From: a virus
IMG/VR virus record: IMGVR_UViG_3300021057_000024
Coordinates: 1-38,503 of that record
DNA length: 38,503 bases
Reading direction: 5' to 3' (one strand)
A program made the translations under genes and the position numbers. The notes beneath the pieces were generated by a model. The model saw only the letters and a list, made by a program, of their open reading frames with translations. It ran no database searches and was not told the DNA's origin. Below are positions 1,435-38,503 of the stretch, piece after piece; position 1 is the first letter of the stretch; the number at the start of each line of letters is the position of its first letter.

Positions 1435-1863
1435 ATGGCAATCCAGATAGTAGTCGAAGGAACACCGCGACCAGGCGGAAGCAAAACACCGGGCAAAACT
1501 AAGTCCGGCAAGCTGTTTGTCCGCGATGCCAATCCTTTGACTGCTGTCTGGAAAGCCGAGGTGGCCGACGCTGCCAACGCTCAATACTGGGGTGAGCTGC
1601 TCGACGGTCCTGTCAGTTGCCGCTTTCATTTTCGCTTTGCTCGCCCAAAACACCACTTCAGAAAGAACGGCGAACTCAAGCCCGATGCGCCGCGCTTTCA
1701 CACCATCACACCAGACTTGGACAAGATAGTCCGCTCAACAAGTGACGCGCTGACCGGCATCGTATGGACTGACGATGCGCTGGTATGCAGTCGCGCAGAA
1801 GAAAAACGTTATTGCAATCTGGGCGAGTTGCCCGGCGCCACCGTTACCATCTGGGAAGCCTAA
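1435..1863 (+). CDS. rusA: RusA-family Holliday junction resolvase
   Basis: This is probably a dimeric, metal-dependent endonuclease that cuts Holliday junctions, resolving recombination or replication intermediates before packaging. The diagnostic block is at ~97-122: PDLDKIVRSTSDALTGIVW followed by TDDALV. It matches the RusA pattern in which several Asp residues bind metal. The N-terminus, IVVEGTPRPGGSKTPG, is the usual RusA first strand and substrate loop. At 142 aa it is slightly longer than E. coli RusA. No strong ribosome site precedes the ATG, so it may depend on coupling to ssb, 6 bases upstream. Its TAA stop shares one base with the ATG of the primase-helicase gene. Phage replication modules often pair SSB and RusA. 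Confidence 0.9.
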   Translation: MAIQIVVEGTPRPGGSKTPGKTKSGKLFVRDANPLTAVWKAEVADAANAQYWGELLDGPVSCRFHFRFARPKHHFRKNGELKPDAPRFHTITPDLDKIVRSTSDALTGIVWTDDALVCSRAEEKRYCNLGELPGATVTIWEA

Positions 1864-3857
1864 TGCACGAAGTATTGAGCACCGCGCTGAACTATCGAGC
1901 CTGTGGGTTAAGCGTCATTCCGCTTGAACTTGACGGCTCAAGAAAACCGGCCCTCCGCACATGGGACCCATACACGGCCAAGCTGGCAACGGAGCGAGAG
2001 ATCACTGATTGGTTTCGTGATGGCAACCACGGCATCGGCATCATTGGCGGACCAGTGAGCGGCGGACTGGAAATCATTGACCTGGAAAGCATCGAGATAG
2101 CCAAAGCCTGGCAGCAGCGAGTCAAAGAAGCTGGCGGTGAGGCTTTGCTCAAGCGCCTGCTGGTGGTGAAAACTCCAAAAGGATTCCATGCCTATTACCG
2201 GTGCGACGAGCCCGGACGGAACAAAGACTTAGCCCGGCGCCCTGCGACTGAGGCAGAGCTGGCAGCCAAGCCGGAGCTGAAGTACTACAAACTCATCGAA
2301 ACACGCGGGGACCGTGGCTTTGTAGCAGCGCCTGGCTCGCCACCGGAGACGCACCCGAAGAAGATTCCATACAAGGTGGTCCAGGGCACCCATGAAGCCA
2401 TAAACAAAATCACGATGGCTGAGCGTGAGGTTCTCCTGGATGCGGCCCGCTCATTAAATGAATGGTTTGCAAAGGCATACGCTGAGCCACAGCCGGAGAC
2501 CACCGCCAAAGGCGACCAGCCCGGCGATCTGTTTGAAGCAAAGGCGACCTGGGCGCAGATACTTCAACCTAAAGGCTGGCGACAGAGCGCACCGGGCAGA
2601 TGGGTAAGACCAGGCGGCAAGCGTGACAGCGCTATGGAAATCCTTGGTGGCAAGAAGCTGTGGTGCTTCTCCAGCAGCGTCGGAGAGCTGCCCTTCGAGC
2701 AAGCCGTCAGCAAATTTGCAACCTATGCAATGCTCCACCACGAGGGCAACTTCCAGAAAGCCGCTAAACAACTGGCTGCTGATGGCTTCAAGCCGAAACA
2801 ACCAGAGAAGAAGCAGCGATCCGAAGTGATGGACTTCTCTCCGGAGCAGGAAGAACCGCGCTACCAGTTGCCGACGCTTCAGCTCTCGGATCTGATGAAG
2901 TCTCGCTTCCCGGCTCCCCGCTGGGCAATCGAAGACATGCTCCCCGAAGGTCTGACCATTCTGGCCGGAGCTCCAAAGATCGGCAAAAGTTACATGGCCT
3001 TGGACATCTCAATATCACTGTCGGCGGGTGACCCTGTTCTTGGCCACTACCAAACCAGCCAAGGCGAAGCGTTGTATCTGTCGCTGGAAGATAACAACCG
3101 CCGACTGCAGCAACGCGTTAATCAAATTTCCCCTGACTACGCGAAGACATCCAATAACACCAAGCTCCACCTGTGCACCGAGATTCCAAACATGTCCGAA
3201 GGTGGCATCGTTGCGCTTGAGCAATGGCTGGATAACCATCCTGATTGCCGCCTGGTCATCATCGATACCTTGGCTAAATTCCTGCCACCGAGCGACAACA
3301 AGGCGAATGCTTACCAGGCTGATTACCAAGCGCTAGGCAGACTTCAGAAGCTTGCGCTGAAACATGGAATCGCCCTGGTGGTAGTGCACCACGTGCGAAA
3401 GATGAAGGCCACTGATGTGCTGGATGAGGTCTCCGGTAGTGCCGGCTTCACCGGTGCCGCCGATGCGATCTGGGTACTGAAACGAGCTCGCACCGAAAGC
3501 ACTGGCACCATGCTCATCACCGGTCGAGACGTGGACGAAATCCAACTGTCCGCAACCTTCGATAAAGAAACTTCGAAGTGGACGCTTGATGGTGACGCTC
3601 GGCAGGATGCCCGCCGGAAAACTTTGATTTCGCTATACGGTCAGTTCAGAGAACAACCCTTTACCTACGAAGCTGCAAGGACGCCGCTCAATGGCTGCTC
3701 ACTAAGACACGCCACACGAATTGTGGGCGGTCTCGTTGACAGCGGTTACGCAACCAAGATGGAAGACACATCCACGACTGACACCAAGTTCAAACCGCTC
3801 CAATTCACACTCACTGAGCGGGTACCGGAGTTGCTTCTGGCTGGAGGTGAATCATGA
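1863..3857 (+). CDS. prim-pol primase fused to RepA-like (AAA_25) helicase
   Basis: A 664-residue two-domain replication protein expected to make primers and unwind DNA at the fork. The N-terminal ~200 residues resemble the bifunctional primase-polymerase (archaeo-eukaryotic primase) fold. They have an acidic IIDLES motif near 73-78, TPKGFHAYYR with the conserved His near 103-112, and RGDRGFVAAPGSPPE near 148-162. After a linker of ~120 residues comes a RecA-like ATPase: Walker A GAPKIGKS near 369-376, Walker B VIIDTLA near 464-470, then VVVHHVRK and GSAGFTGAADAIWVLKR. This layout occurs in phage and plasmid replicases. I set the start at ATG 1863, inside the previous stop (TAATG); the frame remains open upstream but only shadows rusA. 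No DNA polymerase gene is visible, so the phage may use the host polymerase or carry one outside the window. Confidence 0.9.
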   Translation: MHEVLSTALNYRACGLSVIPLELDGSRKPALRTWDPYTAKLATEREITDWFRDGNHGIGIIGGPVSGGLEIIDLESIEIAKAWQQRVKEAGGEALLKRLLVVKTPKGFHAYYRCDEPGRNKDLARRPATEAELAAKPELKYYKLIETRGDRGFVAAPGSPPETHPKKIPYKVVQGTHEAINKITMAEREVLLDAARSLNEWFAKAYAEPQPETTAKGDQPGDLFEAKATWAQILQPKGWRQSAPGRWVRPGGKRDSAMEILGGKKLWCFSSSVGELPFEQAVSKFATYAMLHHEGNFQKAAKQLAADGFKPKQPEKKQRSEVMDFSPEQEEPRYQLPTLQLSDLMKSRFPAPRWAIEDMLPEGLTILAGAPKIGKSYMALDISISLSAGDPVLGHYQTSQGEALYLSLEDNNRRLQQRVNQISPDYAKTSNNTKLHLCTEIPNMSEGGIVALEQWLDNHPDCRLVIIDTLAKFLPPSDNKANAYQADYQALGRLQKLALKHGIALVVVHHVRKMKATDVLDEVSGSAGFTGAADAIWVLKRARTESTGTMLITGRDVDEIQLSATFDKETSKWTLDGDARQDARRKTLISLYGQFREQPFTYEAARTPLNGCSLRHATRIVGGLVDSGYATKMEDTSTTDTKFKPLQFTLTERVPELLLAGGES

Positions 3858-5624: not shown

Positions 5625-6296
5625 ATGGACGAGACAAACCTAGACCTCAACCAACTGATTGAATACCTCAAGATGCTGGACCCACAGCTTGTACTGCCGC
5701 ACGGCTTCGCTAACCCTCATTGCTATCGGGGCTGGTACGACGAGCTAGCCTTCGAGCCCGCCGAAAACGTGACCGTTGAATCGATGCTCGCCTGTGCCAG
5801 AGCGGCAGTCGGCAAAACATTCACAGCCATCAAGGGCGGTGATTACACCATGAAGCCCTATACCGACTGCTGGCTTTCGAAGTGGGGCGAGGCAAGCGGG
5901 CAGCGGTTGACCCGCGAATACCTTGAATCACAAGTGCGCATGGTGAGCTGCCAGGTCGCAGAGCTTCAACAGGTCGGGCCGTACACCACGCATGAACAGA
6001 TCGGCTCGCGGTTGAAGGAAGCCCGCGTGAGAGCCGGTCTGACGCAAGGTCAAGCCGCTCGTTTGCTCGGACTCAATCAGGAAAAAATCAGCCTGATTGA
6101 GAAGGGCAAGCGTGAGTGTGGCGTCTTGGAGCTGACAGCGTTCAGTGAAGTCTACGCCGTCAGCTATGAATGGATTCTTGGTCAGTGGTGCGAGTCAGAT
6201 CTACCGGAAGAGACGGTGGCAATGTTCGAGAAGATGCCGCCAGTCGACCGACGGAAGCTGCTTGTTCTGCTGGCTTCGATGGGATCAATGTATTAA
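5625..6296 (+). CDS. phage protein fused to XRE-type HTH domain, 223 aa
   Basis: Two parts are visible. Residues ~20-105 (from HGFANPHCYRGWYDELAFEP to GGDYTMKPYTDCWLS) resemble a small stand-alone protein family common in phages and plasmids and of unknown function. Residues ~128-185 are a Cro/C1-type helix-turn-helix: IGSRLKEARVRAGLTQGQAARLLG, then QEKISLIEKGKRECG. A short tail follows. The HTH predicts DNA binding and transcription control, so this is a candidate regulator of the early operon or of lysogeny. It is not encoded divergently from another regulator as lambda CI and Cro are, and no operator is obvious next to it. The start is ATG 5625 with AGAAGGA upstream. Its stop overlaps the next small gene (TAATG). 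Confidence 0.8.
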   Translation: MDETNLDLNQLIEYLKMLDPQLVLPHGFANPHCYRGWYDELAFEPAENVTVESMLACARAAVGKTFTAIKGGDYTMKPYTDCWLSKWGEASGQRLTREYLESQVRMVSCQVAELQQVGPYTTHEQIGSRLKEARVRAGLTQGQAARLLGLNQEKISLIEKGKRECGVLELTAFSEVYAVSYEWILGQWCESDLPEETVAMFEKMPPVDRRKLLVLLASMGSMY

Positions 6297-31816: not shown

Positions 31817-32210
31817 GCTCCTGCTCCTCTATCCGCTTTGCCTCTGCGATCCGCGCGTCCATATCTTCGCGACCAAGCAAGAGCCGCGCCTCCACATCCT
31901 TGAGCTCAATCTTCACCATCTCTTGCTTGATTTGCTGAGCGGGCTTGCCCCATCCGCGATCCAAGATTTGCTTTGCCGCCTCCAGGCGCGTTGAAAATTC
32001 CGCTTCCGGGTTGTTCATGATTGCGAAAATGACATTGAAGGCTTGTTCGGTGTGGTCCTTCGCAAGCTTCTGCAAACTGAACGGCGCCGGGTTGGTCCGA
32101 CCGGGGATGCTTGGCACGTGCTTATGCTCAGGCGGATCGTCGGCCGGTGCCATGTCCAGCAACTCATCAACGATATCGAACGCTGCAAAAATGTCGTCGT
32201 CGTCAGGCAT
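31734..32210 (-). CDS. terminase small subunit candidate, 158 aa
   Basis: Expected to recognise phage DNA and start packaging. The central block resembles other small terminases: FSLQKLAKDHTEQAFNVIFA near 43-62, then a segment with STRLEAAKQILDRGWGKPAQ near 72-91, which is a common form in this family. The N-terminus is very acidic (DDDDIFAAFD). The C-terminus has a helical, charged part and a flexible end. It directly precedes the large subunit gene, the standard order. It starts inside the end of the PC4-like gene (8-base overlap). Confidence 0.75.
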   Translation of the reverse strand: MPDDDDIFAAFDIVDELLDMAPADDPPEHKHVPSIPGRTNPAPFSLQKLAKDHTEQAFNVIFAIMNNPEAEFSTRLEAAKQILDRGWGKPAQQIKQEMVKIELKDVEARLLLGREDMDARIAEAKRIEEQELGRYITVDPEVVTDVTPRSESTLPDYT

Positions 32211-32487
32211 AGATGCTTACTGGGTCCTCTTCCACAGGCGCAGCCGGCTTCTCGTTCGCCGATCCGAGAACAATCTTCAACGCCTGCAGAATGGTGCGCA
32301 CGTTGGCTTCAGGGATGGCTATGCCTTTGAGCCCTGGCTTGTAGATGCCTTCCTTCTTGCAATTGAACCAATACCGGATGTGCAGGAAGTTGTCGTTCTT
32401 GTACTCTTCGAAGTAGACATACAGGCGCCCCAGCTTGGACTCGCTGATAAACACCTTGCCGTCTTCATCGACTGTAAATGGCTCCAT
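32203..32487 (-). CDS. PC4-like (transcriptional coactivator p15) ssDNA-binding protein, 94 aa
   Basis: Residues ~15-72 have the PC4-fold pattern: strand GRLYVYFEEYKND, strand FLHIRYWFNCKK, then YKPGLKGIAIPEANVRTILQ with the LKGI.I signature and final helix. PC4-like proteins bind single-stranded DNA and some act on transcription, replication or repair; the cellular function in phages is mostly unknown. The tail (EKPAAPVEEDP) is flexible. It lies just before the terminase genes, with stops and starts overlapping by one base upstream and 8 downstream. The motif match is by eye and moderate. Confidence 0.6.
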   Translation of the reverse strand: MEPFTVDEDGKVFISESKLGRLYVYFEEYKNDNFLHIRYWFNCKKEGIYKPGLKGIAIPEANVRTILQALKIVLGSANEKPAAPVEEDPVSIYA

Positions 32488-33099: not shown

Positions 33100-33399
33100 C
33101 TACTCGACAGCCTGCATGATTCCGACCGGGACATCCGGCATCGGCATGTAAGCGACGACGGGCTGGTCCCATGCAACAGCCTGGGTTCCGGTGTAGCCGC
33201 CACCAGCCCACCAAGGCTCAAGTAGACGATAATGATTGAACCAGAGTTGAACCGTTGTGTAGTGCGACAGCTCTCCGCTCGGCTTCAGAATCTTGGTAAG
33301 CGCTATGTACCAGCCGGAAGTCTCAGGCTCTCCAAAACGCCATTGCATCAAGCCGAAGAACGAATCGTCATGCTTCGGCAACTTCGCTTTCTTGCTCAT
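33100..33399 (-). CDS. hypothetical protein, 99 aa
   Basis: An unrecognised soluble, Trp/Tyr-rich protein (FFGLMQWRFGEPETSGWYIA; QLWFNHYRLLEPWWAGGGY) with a basic N-terminus. No known domain. It ends 11 bases before the promoter for the next operon. A copy of the RHH-associated element GTACCAGTACA lies at 33407-33417, overlapping the candidate -10 (TATTGT) just upstream of the ATG. This gene is therefore a candidate target of the phage regulator. Confidence 0.65.
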   Translation of the reverse strand: MSKKAKLPKHDDSFFGLMQWRFGEPETSGWYIALTKILKPSGELSHYTTVQLWFNHYRLLEPWWAGGGYTGTQAVAWDQPVVAYMPMPDVPVGIMQAVE

Positions 33400-33406
33400 C
33401 GCTCTG

Positions 33407-33420
33407 GTACCAGTACAATA
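33407..33420 (-). promoter_or_regulatory. remote copy of the RHH-linked element overlapping a -10
   Basis: Exact 11-mer GTACCAGTACA at 33407-33417, extended to GTACCAGTACAAT as in one copy of the 36.5 kb array. On the minus strand it overlaps TATTGT (33415-33420), 8-21 bases before the ATG at 33399. Confidence 0.55.
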
Positions 33421-34994: not shown

Positions 34995-35001
34995 GGTGGC
35001 A

Positions 35002-35031
35002 AGTCTACCCCCTATTTAAATTGTGGGTCAA
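35002..35031 (-). promoter_or_regulatory. weak promoter candidate for the leftward small-gene operon
   Basis: Minus strand: TTGACC (35026-35031), an 18-base spacer and TAGACT (35002-35007). The transcript would begin at or near ATG 34994, giving a nearly leaderless message. An AT-rich TTTAAAT lies in the spacer. Confidence 0.35.
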
Positions 35032-35065
35032 CTGAGTTTTTTTTTGGTAAACGCGATTTGCAATC

Positions 35066-35149
35066 TGTGAACGAGGCACCATGAACACAGCACCGCTTCT
35101 GGTGAACGATACCGCCTCCTGTGTGAACAGGCAGCCCCTTCCTGTGAAC
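35066..35149 (+). repeat. TGTGAAC iteron-like series at 21-bp pitch
   Basis: The copies are TGTGAAC at 35066, CATGAAC at 35080, GGTGAAC at 35101, TGTGAAC at 35122 and TGTGAAC at 35143. The last four steps are exactly 21 bp, two helical turns, so they face the same side of DNA. This looks like a binding-site ladder (replication or recombination iterons). They also sit in frame in a short open frame (35081-35185). Confidence 0.55.
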
Positions 35150-35185
35150 AGTTTCGTTTTTTTATTAGCGGTCCAAAGAGGGTAA
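35081..35185 (+). CDS. possible 34-aa leader peptide across the iterons
   Basis: From ATG 35081 to TAA 35185, with GAGG 4 bases upstream. The 21-bp repeat makes a seven-residue repeat with Val-Asn at a fixed place (LLVND, SCVNR, LPVNS). It could be a real small peptide or leader, or the frame may simply come from the repeats. Confidence 0.25.
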   Translation: MNTAPLLVNDTASCVNRQPLPVNSFVFLLAVQRG

Positions 35186-35230
35186 CCCCCTAGTGGAGAC
35201 AGACCCCCTTGGGGGTGCCTATGGGTGGTT

Positions 35231-35282
35231 TCGCGAGAAATTCTCTGGTAACTTCGCGATAAGATATGATCTGCTCTCGCGA
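35231..35282. promoter_or_regulatory. three TCGCGA sites at exact 23-bp pitch, likely operator
   Basis: TCGCGA occurs at 35231-35236, 35254-35259 and 35277-35282, in the setting (T/C)TCGCGA(T/G)A. A TATGAT -10-like hexamer (35265-35270) lies between the second and third copies. This could be the control region of the recombinase gene. Confidence 0.5.
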
Positions 35283-35396
35283 TAGAACTGGCTCGCAGTG
35301 CGGGTTACAGCGAGATGGAATTAATCTCGATGTCCTTCTAAAGCGAGCGAATAGCAGGTACACTGATTCTCGTATCACCCGCATGGAGATTGAATC

Positions 35397-36020
35397 GTGA
35401 CACCTGCAAACATTTCCAAGGACATCAAGACGGCTGCTATCTACTGCCGTGTATCCACCGACGACCAAGACTGTGAGCGCCAGGTCCGAGACCTTACCGC
35501 CTTCGCCCAACGCTGTGGGTACCAGGTGATAGACGCGCATATATTTAGAGAGACCGCCTCCGGAAAGAAGACGACCAGACAAGTGCGCAATCTGGTGCTC
35601 CAACTAGCCCAAGCTCGCAAGATTGATGTCATCCTGGTGACTGAGCTCACGAGATGGGGACGTAACACAGTGGACCTGCTCAGTACCTTGCAGACTCTGA
35701 ACGAGTATGGAGTCTCCATCGTTGCTGAACGTGGTGTTCAGTTCGATCTGGGGACAGCACAGGGCAAGATGATAGCTGGCTTCATGGCCGTGTTGGCTGA
35801 GTTTGAAGCGAACCTGCTATCAGAGCGCACCAAGAGCGGTATGGCTACAGCCAGAGCCCGTGGTAAACACATTGGGAGACCGAAGGGCAACCGCACAGTA
35901 GGCAAACATCAGAAGGCTGTGAAGGAGCTAACCAGCCTTGGATTCAGTATCAGAGACATTGCAAGCAAGCTGAAGATAGGCAAAGAAACCGTGATGGCAT
36001 GCCAGCGAGCCGCCATCTGA
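35397..36020 (+). CDS. serine recombinase (resolvase/invertase family), 207 aa
   Basis: A site-specific recombinase that cuts and rejoins DNA through an active-site Ser. AAIYCRVSTDDQDCERQV near 13-30 holds the catalytic Ser in YxRVSTxDQ. ELTRWGRNTVDLLSTLQTL near 82-100 holds the conserved Arg residues (RxxR-type). GKMIAGFMAVLAEFEANLLS and ERTKSGMATARARGKHIGRP follow, the resolvase C-terminal helix and GRP hinge. The end (LGFSIRDIASKLKIGKETVM near 179-198) is the DNA-binding HTH. The size is that of small resolvases and invertases, not of the large phage integrases. The start is GTG 35397 with GGAG 8 bases upstream. It could act in dimer resolution, inversion of a segment or lysogenic integration. 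Confidence 0.92.
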   Translation: MTPANISKDIKTAAIYCRVSTDDQDCERQVRDLTAFAQRCGYQVIDAHIFRETASGKKTTRQVRNLVLQLAQARKIDVILVTELTRWGRNTVDLLSTLQTLNEYGVSIVAERGVQFDLGTAQGKMIAGFMAVLAEFEANLLSERTKSGMATARARGKHIGRPKGNRTVGKHQKAVKELTSLGFSIRDIASKLKIGKETVMACQRAAI

Positions 36021-36048: not shown

Positions 36049-36082
36049 TCAAGAGCCTGTGTACTGGTACATGGGCTCTTGA
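36049..36082. repeat. 9-bp inverted repeat with a GTACCAGTACA copy in its loop
   Basis: Arms TCAAGAGCC (36049-36057) and GGCTCTTGA (36074-36082). The loop holds TGTACTGGTAC (36060-36070), the reverse of the element in the downstream array. No T-tract follows on the plus strand, so it is a weak terminator at best. A protein-bound or cruciform site is likelier. Confidence 0.6.
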
Positions 36083-36113
36083 AGCAGAGAGAGAGAGAGA
36101 GAGAGTTTTCTAT

Positions 36114-36343
36114 GTCCATGGATAGCACTTTAGGCACTGGTGGCACTTTCTTCCATGGACATGGCTGGATGTCCATGGATGTCCACGGTGTCCACGGGCT
36201 ATTTATGCCGGTCTCGCTGATTGCATATCTGATGGCTATGCGTTCCCTTGGACATCCTTGGACACCCTTGGACTTTTTGCCCATGTCCACGGGTGAAGTT
36301 GGCTATTCATGCGGCTCTTGCATTTTGCCTGTTGCCGTGGACA
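36114..36343. repeat. ten-copy GTCC(A)(T/C)GG element array
   Basis: Copies on the plus strand begin at 36114, 36171, 36181, 36190 and 36285 (GTCCATGGA or GTCCACGG). Copies in the reverse sense are CC(T/G)TGGACA/T at 36246, 36256, 36266 and 36335. At 36152 TCCATGGAC reads almost the same both ways. Two groups are tightly packed with 9-10 base steps (36171-36198 and 36246-36273). This is far above chance and looks like binding sites for one protein. Confidence 0.75.
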
Positions 36344-36372: not shown

Positions 36373-36536
36373 GTACCAGTACATTAGCTCAAAGGCTCAA
36401 GACCGGCACCACGCCACGCTTTCAGGCGCTTTCCGACCGTACCAGTACATGCGCTGGTACCAGTACAGATATCCGGTTGTACCAGTACACAAATTGGCAA
36501 TGTACCAGTACAATCACCGCAGGCGGTACCAGTACA
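36373..36536 (+). repeat. six direct copies of GTACCAGTACA
   Basis: Exact 11-mers start at 36373, 36439, 36457, 36479, 36502 and 36526. The last five steps are 18, 22, 23 and 24 bp. The core GTACCAGTAC is an imperfect palindrome (GTAC...GTAC). The array ends 12 bases before the RHH gene, so it is its likely operator. Confidence 0.85.
36486..36514 (+). promoter_or_regulatory. candidate promoter of the RHH gene inside the array
   Basis: TACACA (36486-36491), a 17-base spacer and TACAAT (36509-36514). GTACCAGTACA copies overlap both hexamers, and another lies just after the expected start of transcription, as in an autorepressed promoter. Confidence 0.5.
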
Positions 36537-36548
36537 TTAGGGGGCGAT

Positions 36549-36770
36549 ATGGCAAGAAGTGGTATTGATGAGTTCACGTTCTACCCGGATGAAGCGACAA
36601 GAGAGATACTGTCAGCGATACCACGAGGGCAGCGGTCAGCGCTCGTCAATCAGGCGGTTCAGCGTCTGTGGGACGACCAGGTCGCGGCGATGTCGGATGA
36701 GTGCTCAGCGTCTGCTGTTACCATAGACGGTGACGTCGACATCTTTGGAGGTGACAATGAGTCAGTTTGA
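36549..36770 (+). CDS. ribbon-helix-helix DNA-binding protein candidate, 73 aa
   Basis: The first ~45 residues fit an RHH (CopG/Arc/ParG-like) domain: a strand with IDEFTFYPDEATREILSAIP, then RGQRSALVNQAVQRLWDD. The strand, helix and the RSxxVNxAV helix are typical of the fold. RHH proteins bind DNA as dimers, several dimers side by side on short direct repeats, which fits the six-copy array right upstream. The C-terminal ~25 residues are acidic and flexible (DGDVDIFGGDNE). ATG 36549 has AGGGGG just before it; the frame further upstream only crosses the repeats. It overlaps the next gene by 14 bases. Roles to consider are autorepressor, immunity-type regulator or partition protein; no ParA/ParM ATPase follows. 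Confidence 0.7.
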   Translation: MARSGIDEFTFYPDEATREILSAIPRGQRSALVNQAVQRLWDDQVAAMSDECSASAVTIDGDVDIFGGDNESV

Positions 36771-36972
36771 GAATCTCGGACCGGAGGACCTGCTCGGTCT
36801 TACAGTGGTTGAGAGCGATAAGAGTTATGATGCCGCCGAGGAACTGGGGCGGCGTATCAATCGGCTGGTAAATGCTGCTGAAACCGTCTACACCCTGGCT
36901 GACTCCAACACGTTGGCAGACCTGGATTGTGCTTTGAACTACATGCAGACCGGCAAGGATGACGCACGATGA
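36757..36972 (+). CDS. hypothetical protein, 71 aa
   Basis: A small acidic, helical, unrecognised protein (LTVVESDKSYDAAEELGRRI, then LNYMQTGKDDAR). I set ATG 36757, with GGAGG 6 bases upstream, in place of the earlier in-frame codons. It overlaps both the RHH gene and the next gene, so the set is co-translated. Confidence 0.6.
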   Translation: MSQFENLGPEDLLGLTVVESDKSYDAAEELGRRINRLVNAAETVYTLADSNTLADLDCALNYMQTGKDDAR

Positions 36973-37229
36973 GTGAGCATGGACCGTTGGTCGACCAGGC
37001 GCTGAAGCGATTGGAACAACAGAATCCGCCGCTAGGAACTGTTCGGGCCTACGATGGCACGCAACCGCATGAGGTCGAGCGCAAGCTGAATGAGGCATTG
37101 CGTAAAGCGAATGAAGACTTGCTCAGCGGTGACTCGTCCGCGTATGCACAGTGCGTCAACGCTATGAGCAATTGGATCGAAGGACAAATGCAACGTCCGT
37201 GCGCCCTGGAGGATTTCCAATGGGAATGA
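36969..37229 (+). CDS. hypothetical protein, 86 aa
   Basis: An unrecognised charged helical protein (VERKLNEALRKANEDLLSGD). It starts in an ATGA overlap with the previous stop and overlaps the next gene by 10 bases. No motif that would give a function is seen. Confidence 0.6.
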   Translation: MSEHGPLVDQALKRLEQQNPPLGTVRAYDGTQPHEVERKLNEALRKANEDLLSGDSSAYAQCVNAMSNWIEGQMQRPCALEDFQWE

Positions 37230-37444
37230 TTGGCCGTTATCAGTTCGATGTCTATTGCGATGCCCATGAATGTCACGCGTTCAATGACGGTGAAACCAAA
37301 ACAGAAGGCGAAGCGTATGCGCTACTGCGCAGTGAAGGATGGAGTATCGAGCGCGGCAACACGCCCGCCAACAGCGGCATTAGACTCAAAGCGAAACTGA
37401 CAGGCAACTACATCGCGATTTGTCCAAAACATACTAAGAAGTAG
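37220..37444 (+). CDS. hypothetical Cys/His protein, 74 aa
   Basis: Contains YCDAHECHAF near 12-21 and AICPKHTKK at the end, a Cys/His set that could bind zinc. The family is not recognised. ATG 37220 has GGAGGA 7 bases upstream; the open frame before it lies inside the 86-aa gene. A terminator follows at 37473. Confidence 0.6.
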   Translation: MGMIGRYQFDVYCDAHECHAFNDGETKTEGEAYALLRSEGWSIERGNTPANSGIRLKAKLTGNYIAICPKHTKK

Positions 37445-37472
37445 CGTTCCGACAATTTCAAAATTCCTCAAC

Positions 37473-37503
37473 GGGGCACCAGATTTGGTGCTCCGATCTT
37501 TTT
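37473..37503 (+). terminator. rho-independent terminator after the RHH operon
   Basis: A stem of 9 pairs, with one G-T pair (37473-37481 with 37486-37494), a 4-base loop and CTTTTT at 37498-37503. It closes the small operon that starts with the RHH gene. Confidence 0.85.
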
Positions 37504-37528
37504 GCATCGAAAATCAGCGCGATTTAAT

Positions 37529-38169: not shown

Positions 38170-38503
38170 ATGGCAATCAAGAATCGCAAGACCGCACGCA
38201 GCAACCAAGCGCAGATGAAGCTGTCACTCAACGAGCCAGCGACCAAGGAATTGGTCGACGGTTACGGTGTAATGCAGCAGGGCAAAGAGTGGGTCATCAC
38301 GCACGATGGCAAGCCGGTCGATACCGTGTTCGCCCAATTCAAGAAGCGAGAGGATGCAGAGGCAGAGATTGAGTATGACCGCATGCTCCGCGCCAAACAC
38401 GAAGCCGCCATGCGTAAAGAAGCCGCAGCTACCCCCAAGCGCTTCAAGGTGCATTTCGACGTCTACCCCGATTATTGGTGCGTGGATCGTGGACGGTGGG
38501 CGC
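38170..38503 (+). CDS. hypothetical protein, cut by the window end (at least 111 aa)
   Basis: From ATG 38170, with GGAGG 4 bases upstream, the frame stays open to the end of the window. The N-terminus is basic and polar (AIKNRKTARSNQAQMK). A middle part follows (KEWVITHDGKPVDTVFAQFK), then a Glu/Lys helical part, then KRFKVHFDVYPDYWCVD before the cut. It is not recognised. The upstream ribosome site and steady coding character support a real gene. Confidence 0.65.
   Translation, partial: MAIKNRKTARSNQAQMKLSLNEPATKELVDGYGVMQQGKEWVITHDGKPVDTVFAQFKKREDAEAEIEYDRMLRAKHEAAMRKEAAATPKRFKVHFDVYPDYWCVDRGRWA

Follow-up and report, generated by a model that had tools for sequence, protein, structure and literature searches.

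An array of six exact 11-bp sites before an early phage operon as a candidate multi-site operator

Why would a phage carry six exact copies of an 11-bp sequence directly before a small early gene, and two more copies farther away? The window that we analyzed, which is an entire 38,503-bp virus record, contains the sequence GTACCAGTACA exactly eight times: at 33407, 36060 (on the minus strand), 36373, 36439, 36457, 36479, 36502, and 36526. The initial annotation had listed these eight copies, and a search of the full record confirmed each of them and found no ninth exact copy. The initial annotation had also proposed that the six clustered copies precede a gene of the RHH type, and that one phage protein uses the whole set. 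Here we ask which protein might bind the sites, and for what.

Number, exactness, and placement of the sites

The expected number of copies of GTACCAGTACA, as estimated from 100 dinucleotide shuffles, is zero. Six of the eight copies form an array on the plus strand (36373–36536). They share one orientation, and the intervals between them are 66, 18, 22, 23, and 24 bp. Given these spacings, the array is not a coding repeat. The clustering is also unusual: among 20 random sequences from a first-order Markov model, no 8-mer appeared more than 3 times per 400 bp, as compared to six copies of the core in the array. All eight copies are wholly intergenic, versus 6.6% of all 11-mers. (By the gene list that we made for this analysis, intergenic sequence makes up 7.2% of the genome.)

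Each site reads as a pseudo-palindrome, (T)GTAC-CA-GTACA. The central CA and the 3' A are present in 8/8 copies, while the 5' T is present in only 4/8. All 11 columns of the site are invariant across the eight copies, but the conservation of the flanking columns is close to that of random columns (mean of 0.43 bits versus 0.32 bits, with a 95% limit of 0.74 bits for random columns). Exact sites with free flanks suggest a protein-binding site that is under selection, rather than a recent duplication. The array is a genuine and strongly non-random regulatory element of a known kind. Judging from the sequence, it is almost certain that the eight copies are where one DNA-binding protein docks to switch the adjacent operon. 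A search of Rfam gave no match, and a literature search for the 11-mer found no paper about phages, judged by title.

The array occupies the last part of the largest intergenic gap in the genome (36021–36548). A single open reading frame continues across the ends of the record, from 38170–38503 into 1–446, which makes it probable that the linear record represents a complete genome, either circular or circularly permuted. The early genes lie on the plus strand, from 35397 across the record ends to 7885, and the structural genes are on the minus strand. One minus-strand gene (32203–32487) encodes a PC4 (transcriptional coactivator p15) domain (E = 2e-7). Just before the gap is a gene for a small serine recombinase of the resolvase/invertase type (35397–36020, plus strand), which was identified by profile matches and is 53–55% identical to resolvases from plasmids and the Tn3 family.

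Two other families of repeats, neither of which was in the initial annotation, lie near the array. Between the recombinase gene and the array, there are about ten copies of TGTCCAYGG / CCNTGGACA in both orientations (36113–36343), with three forward and three reverse copies facing each other around 36198–36245. We considered these as a res site for the recombinase and rejected this idea, as there are no subsites at the spacing of a resolvase. The other family comprises five direct repeats centered on TGAAC (35061–35158, plus strand), with spacings of 14, 21, 21, and 21 bp. They sit in the divergent gap at 34995–35396, beside an AT-rich stretch, and are good candidates for either an operator or iterons.

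The two remote copies are also near genes. The copy at 36060–36070, on the minus strand, is at the center of a 34-bp near-palindrome, TCAAGAGCC-TG-TGTAC-TG-GTACA-TG-GGCTCTTGA (36049–36082), which lies 28 bp past the stop codon of the recombinase gene. The initial annotation had the position and strand of this copy right but placed it in the loop of a hairpin. Instead, both GTAC halves lie at the top of the stem, which has 15 bp and a loop of 4 nt (fold z of –5.7). The 34-bp palindrome had no match in IMG/VR. Directly 3' of it is an (AG)n tract (36084–36106). The other remote copy (33407–33417, plus strand) is in a 43-bp gap upstream of a minus-strand gene (33100–33399), 8–18 nt upstream of its ATG. 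This copy was thought to overlap the –10 element of that gene; it does lie upstream of the gene, but our promoter scan reported no promoter-like match at 33407.

The operon behind the array and its first product

Downstream of the array, 36549–37444 reads as a four-gene early operon on the plus strand. The first gene (36549–36770) encodes P0001, an acidic protein of 73 amino acids whose family is unproven. It is followed by three small genes with overlapping ends (36757–36972, 36969–37229, and 37223–37444) and then by a hairpin and T-run that resemble an intrinsic terminator (37472–37504). The last copy in the array reaches to 12 bp before the ATG of the first gene. Copies 4 and 5 overlap a weak sigma-70-like match, TACACA-17-TACAAT (36486–36514, plus strand), and the best –10-like hexamer is covered by the array. 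The overlap is as the initial annotation described, but matches to the –35 and –10 elements are no more common here than expected by chance (5 found versus 3.5 in shuffled sequences).

The first open reading frame is probably a real gene, because its codon score is best in its own frame (although the score is modest, 0.08) and because a G-rich stretch precedes the ATG. Its proposed identity as an RHH protein is not supported. P0001 had no match in the Pfam, NCBIfam, or PHROGs profiles, and its only two matches among PDB sequences were weak and were not to RHH proteins. We also built our own RHH/Arc profile, against which P0001 ranked 573rd of 5,000 shuffles. As a control, we left out each of six true RHH proteins in turn, and they ranked between 0 and 33 of 2,000 (the top 2%). 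Also, P0001 is strongly acidic (charge of about –9.5 and pI of 4.05).

The case for an RHH fold is limited to a residue pattern and a weak model. By eye, residues EFTFYPDEATREILSAIPRGQRSALVNQAVQRLW resemble a strand-helix-helix, but the phase of the strand is shifted and the turn is shorter. A single-sequence model, made with no alignment, has a coil followed by helices at 15–23 and 26–52 (pLDDT of 71, pTM of 0.33). Structure searches with this model found no matching fold, and a control RHH-like protein was modeled no better.

We found no homologs of P0001 in the IMG/VR, phage, plasmid, or GTDB collections, and no relatives of it among the records that carry similar arrays. A weak match in Embleya was rejected because its reading frame is that of a MarR-like gene.

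What might bind the sites

We think that there is about an even chance that the six copies together form a multi-site operator, which spans the promoter and leader of the early operon and lets a DNA-binding protein of the phage shut the operon off. One protein, probably as one dimer per TGTAC-CA-GTACA pseudo-palindrome, would occupy the sites, and binding at neighboring sites, about two helical turns apart, would turn the operon off. The likeliest binder would be the operon's own first product, P0001, by autorepression; the next likeliest would be an XRE-type regulator encoded at 5625–6296. The remote copies would serve the same protein as roadblocks or outlying operators, one after the recombinase gene and the other at the minus-strand gene.

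An operator is consistent with the exactness and non-coding location of the sites, their free flanks, their 18–24 bp spacing in the main block, and the overlap of the array with the leader and the start region of the operon. The overlapping small genes behind the array, the terminator-like hairpin after them, and the codon score of the first gene also count in its favor. The exact intergenic sites, their spacing, and the overlap fit the earlier suggestion that one phage protein controls the operon through the whole set of sites. That the adjacent protein is an RHH factor is supported neither by the profile searches nor by the single-sequence model. On the other hand, the match to a promoter does not exceed the chance expectation, and P0001 is strongly acidic, belongs to no detectable DNA-binding family, and ranks poorly against the RHH profile. 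Nor did we find a relative in the IMG/VR, phage, plasmid, and GTDB collections, which might have shown that the gene and the array travel together. For the portal, terminase, and recombinase proteins, only distant relatives were found, all without the array.

We also found no other exact non-coding array of GTACCAGTACA in these collections. An exact two-copy pattern had 19 matches in IMG/VR, which on inspection were coding repeats, and an exact three-copy pattern had 3 matches in GTDB genomes, 3/3 of which were coding. We then relaxed the pattern to three copies of GTACNNGTAC. Most of the matches listed were coding repeats, but clear non-coding arrays were also among them. In two records, six copies of GTACTAGTAC follow a PrimPol-AAA_25 gene, beginning at its stop codon (L093, 7449–7574, and L142, 5366–5490), and several of these copies are extended to palindromes similar to CCAGTACTAGTACTGG. 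In another two (L193 and L194), the array precedes an operon that encodes an AAA_25 helicase. Single records have an array 1.4 kb after a PrimPol gene (L074), an array in a long non-coding gap (L198), and three GTACNNGTAC sites with GTTAC variants (L192, 4258–4587) directly before a gene for an RHH-like protein of 56 amino acids. The 56-amino-acid protein ranked 31st of 5,000 shuffles against our RHH profile; its only relative among the array-bearing records is itself. In a Komagataeibacter plasmid (L036, 3612–4600), a related recombinase occurs together with a disrupted parA and an RHH gene, with GTATAC repeats to either side.

The GTACNNGTAC arrays come from apparently unrelated phages and serve as analogies. 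They suggest a role in early or replication control. The sites in L192 favor an operator by analogy, while the arrays that adjoin replication genes count against it; as a whole, the analogies favor neither an operator nor replication iterons over the other. With so simple a palindromic motif, a handful of arrays might also be alike by coincidence. It seems quite improbable to us that GTAC-nn-GTAC arrays recur in unrelated phages because of one convergent or very old mode of recognition, by a family of tiny and fast-evolving phage proteins that act in early or replication control and lie below detection by profiles.

The main rival to an operator is that the array consists of iterons of a replication origin. 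The primase-helicase, or another early protein, would bind the repeats, open the DNA, and start replication, and P0001 would be a neighbor or a copy-control factor. We consider this possible but on balance doubtful. The array is in the gap that is the largest of the genome and that has several repeat families within it or nearby. The phage encodes its own PrimPol / AAA_25 primase-helicase (1785–3857, plus strand), which would be the candidate initiator, as well as SSB and a RusA resolvase. And in unrelated phages (L093/L142, L193/L194, and L074), non-coding GTACNNGTAC arrays are found by replication genes. However, the primase-helicase gene is about 3.7 kb from the array, the array stretch has 55% GC content instead of being AT-rich, and we found no DnaA box nearby. 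Single remote copies would not be expected for iterons. Also, the TGAAC-centered repeats, with their 21-bp spacing and the AT-rich stretch beside them (region 35013–35158), are a better candidate.

Another alternative, which overlaps in part with a multi-site operator, is that the XRE-type regulator is a lysogeny repressor. The eight sites would be its operators, and the single remote sites would block elongation in the manner of stoperators. The regulator (5625–6296, plus strand) has a clear XRE domain (E = 4e-10), and XRE proteins typically bind short palindromes. But some 8 kb separate its gene from the array, and there are just two remote sites, both of which are opposite to the local transcription. 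The presence of single sites in outlying intergenic places does resemble the layout of mycobacteriophage stoperators (PMC9283540). Our scans recognized no tyrosine or large serine integrase, so a temperate life is conjectural. We view a lysogeny repressor as unlikely.

The suggestion that the array is a partition centromere, bound by P0001 as a ParG-, Omega-, or ParR-like protein that acts without its own ATPase, now has little in its favor beyond the adjacent resolvase gene, as in the maintenance loci of plasmids, and the parallel with the Komagataeibacter plasmid, and we consider it very improbable: no ParA, ParM, or TubZ turned up when the non-structural genes were scanned against Pfam and PHROG; the primase-helicase is the only credible Walker A (P-loop) protein that we identified in the genome (two other matches to the motif are in the RusA gene and in an antisense frame); the RHH fold of P0001 is not supported by profiles; and the sites are separated, while the Omega system needs at least four contiguous repeats and a ParA (PMC9499535).

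If P0001 does bind the array, then it would represent a new family of very small and acidic phage repressors that are beyond the reach of profiles, and the array would be a multi-copy operator that is ready-made for testing the repressor. Otherwise, the array would be an ordinary control region of a phage. Also, because GTACNNGTAC arrays recur near phage replication genes, searching for them may offer an easy way to locate early control regions or origins in phages that have not been cultivated.

Comparison with known systems

As with Omega/ParB of pSM19035, which is an RHH protein that binds heptad repeats (PMC9499535), there is a repeat array over the putative promoter of a small gene and a resolvase nearby. 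But full activation of the ATPase in the Omega system takes at least four contiguous repeats (PMC9499535); the sites here are separated, no ParA ATPase was found, and the RHH fold is unsupported by profiles. The iteron origins of phages and plasmids also combine direct repeats with further repeats within a long non-coding gap, but here the candidate initiator gene is distant, the array is not AT-rich, and the repeats at 35061–35158 are better candidates.

In the cluster A mycobacteriophages, a monomeric repressor binds stoperators with a 13-bp asymmetric site (PMC9283540). The likeness is in layout only: a short conserved site recurs in outlying intergenic places as well as at an early promoter (PMC9283540), which in our phage is putative. 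Here, the site is an 11-bp pseudo-palindrome with only two outlying copies. We did not identify a homolog of the mycobacteriophage repressor, and the XRE protein is compared to it by layout only.

Operators of the lambda OR/OL type have three variable sites, whereas this phage has six exact copies and two remote ones, and its binder is only a candidate. What the array would share with OR/OL is its architecture: several short pseudo-palindromic sites, about 18–24 bp apart, over an early promoter.
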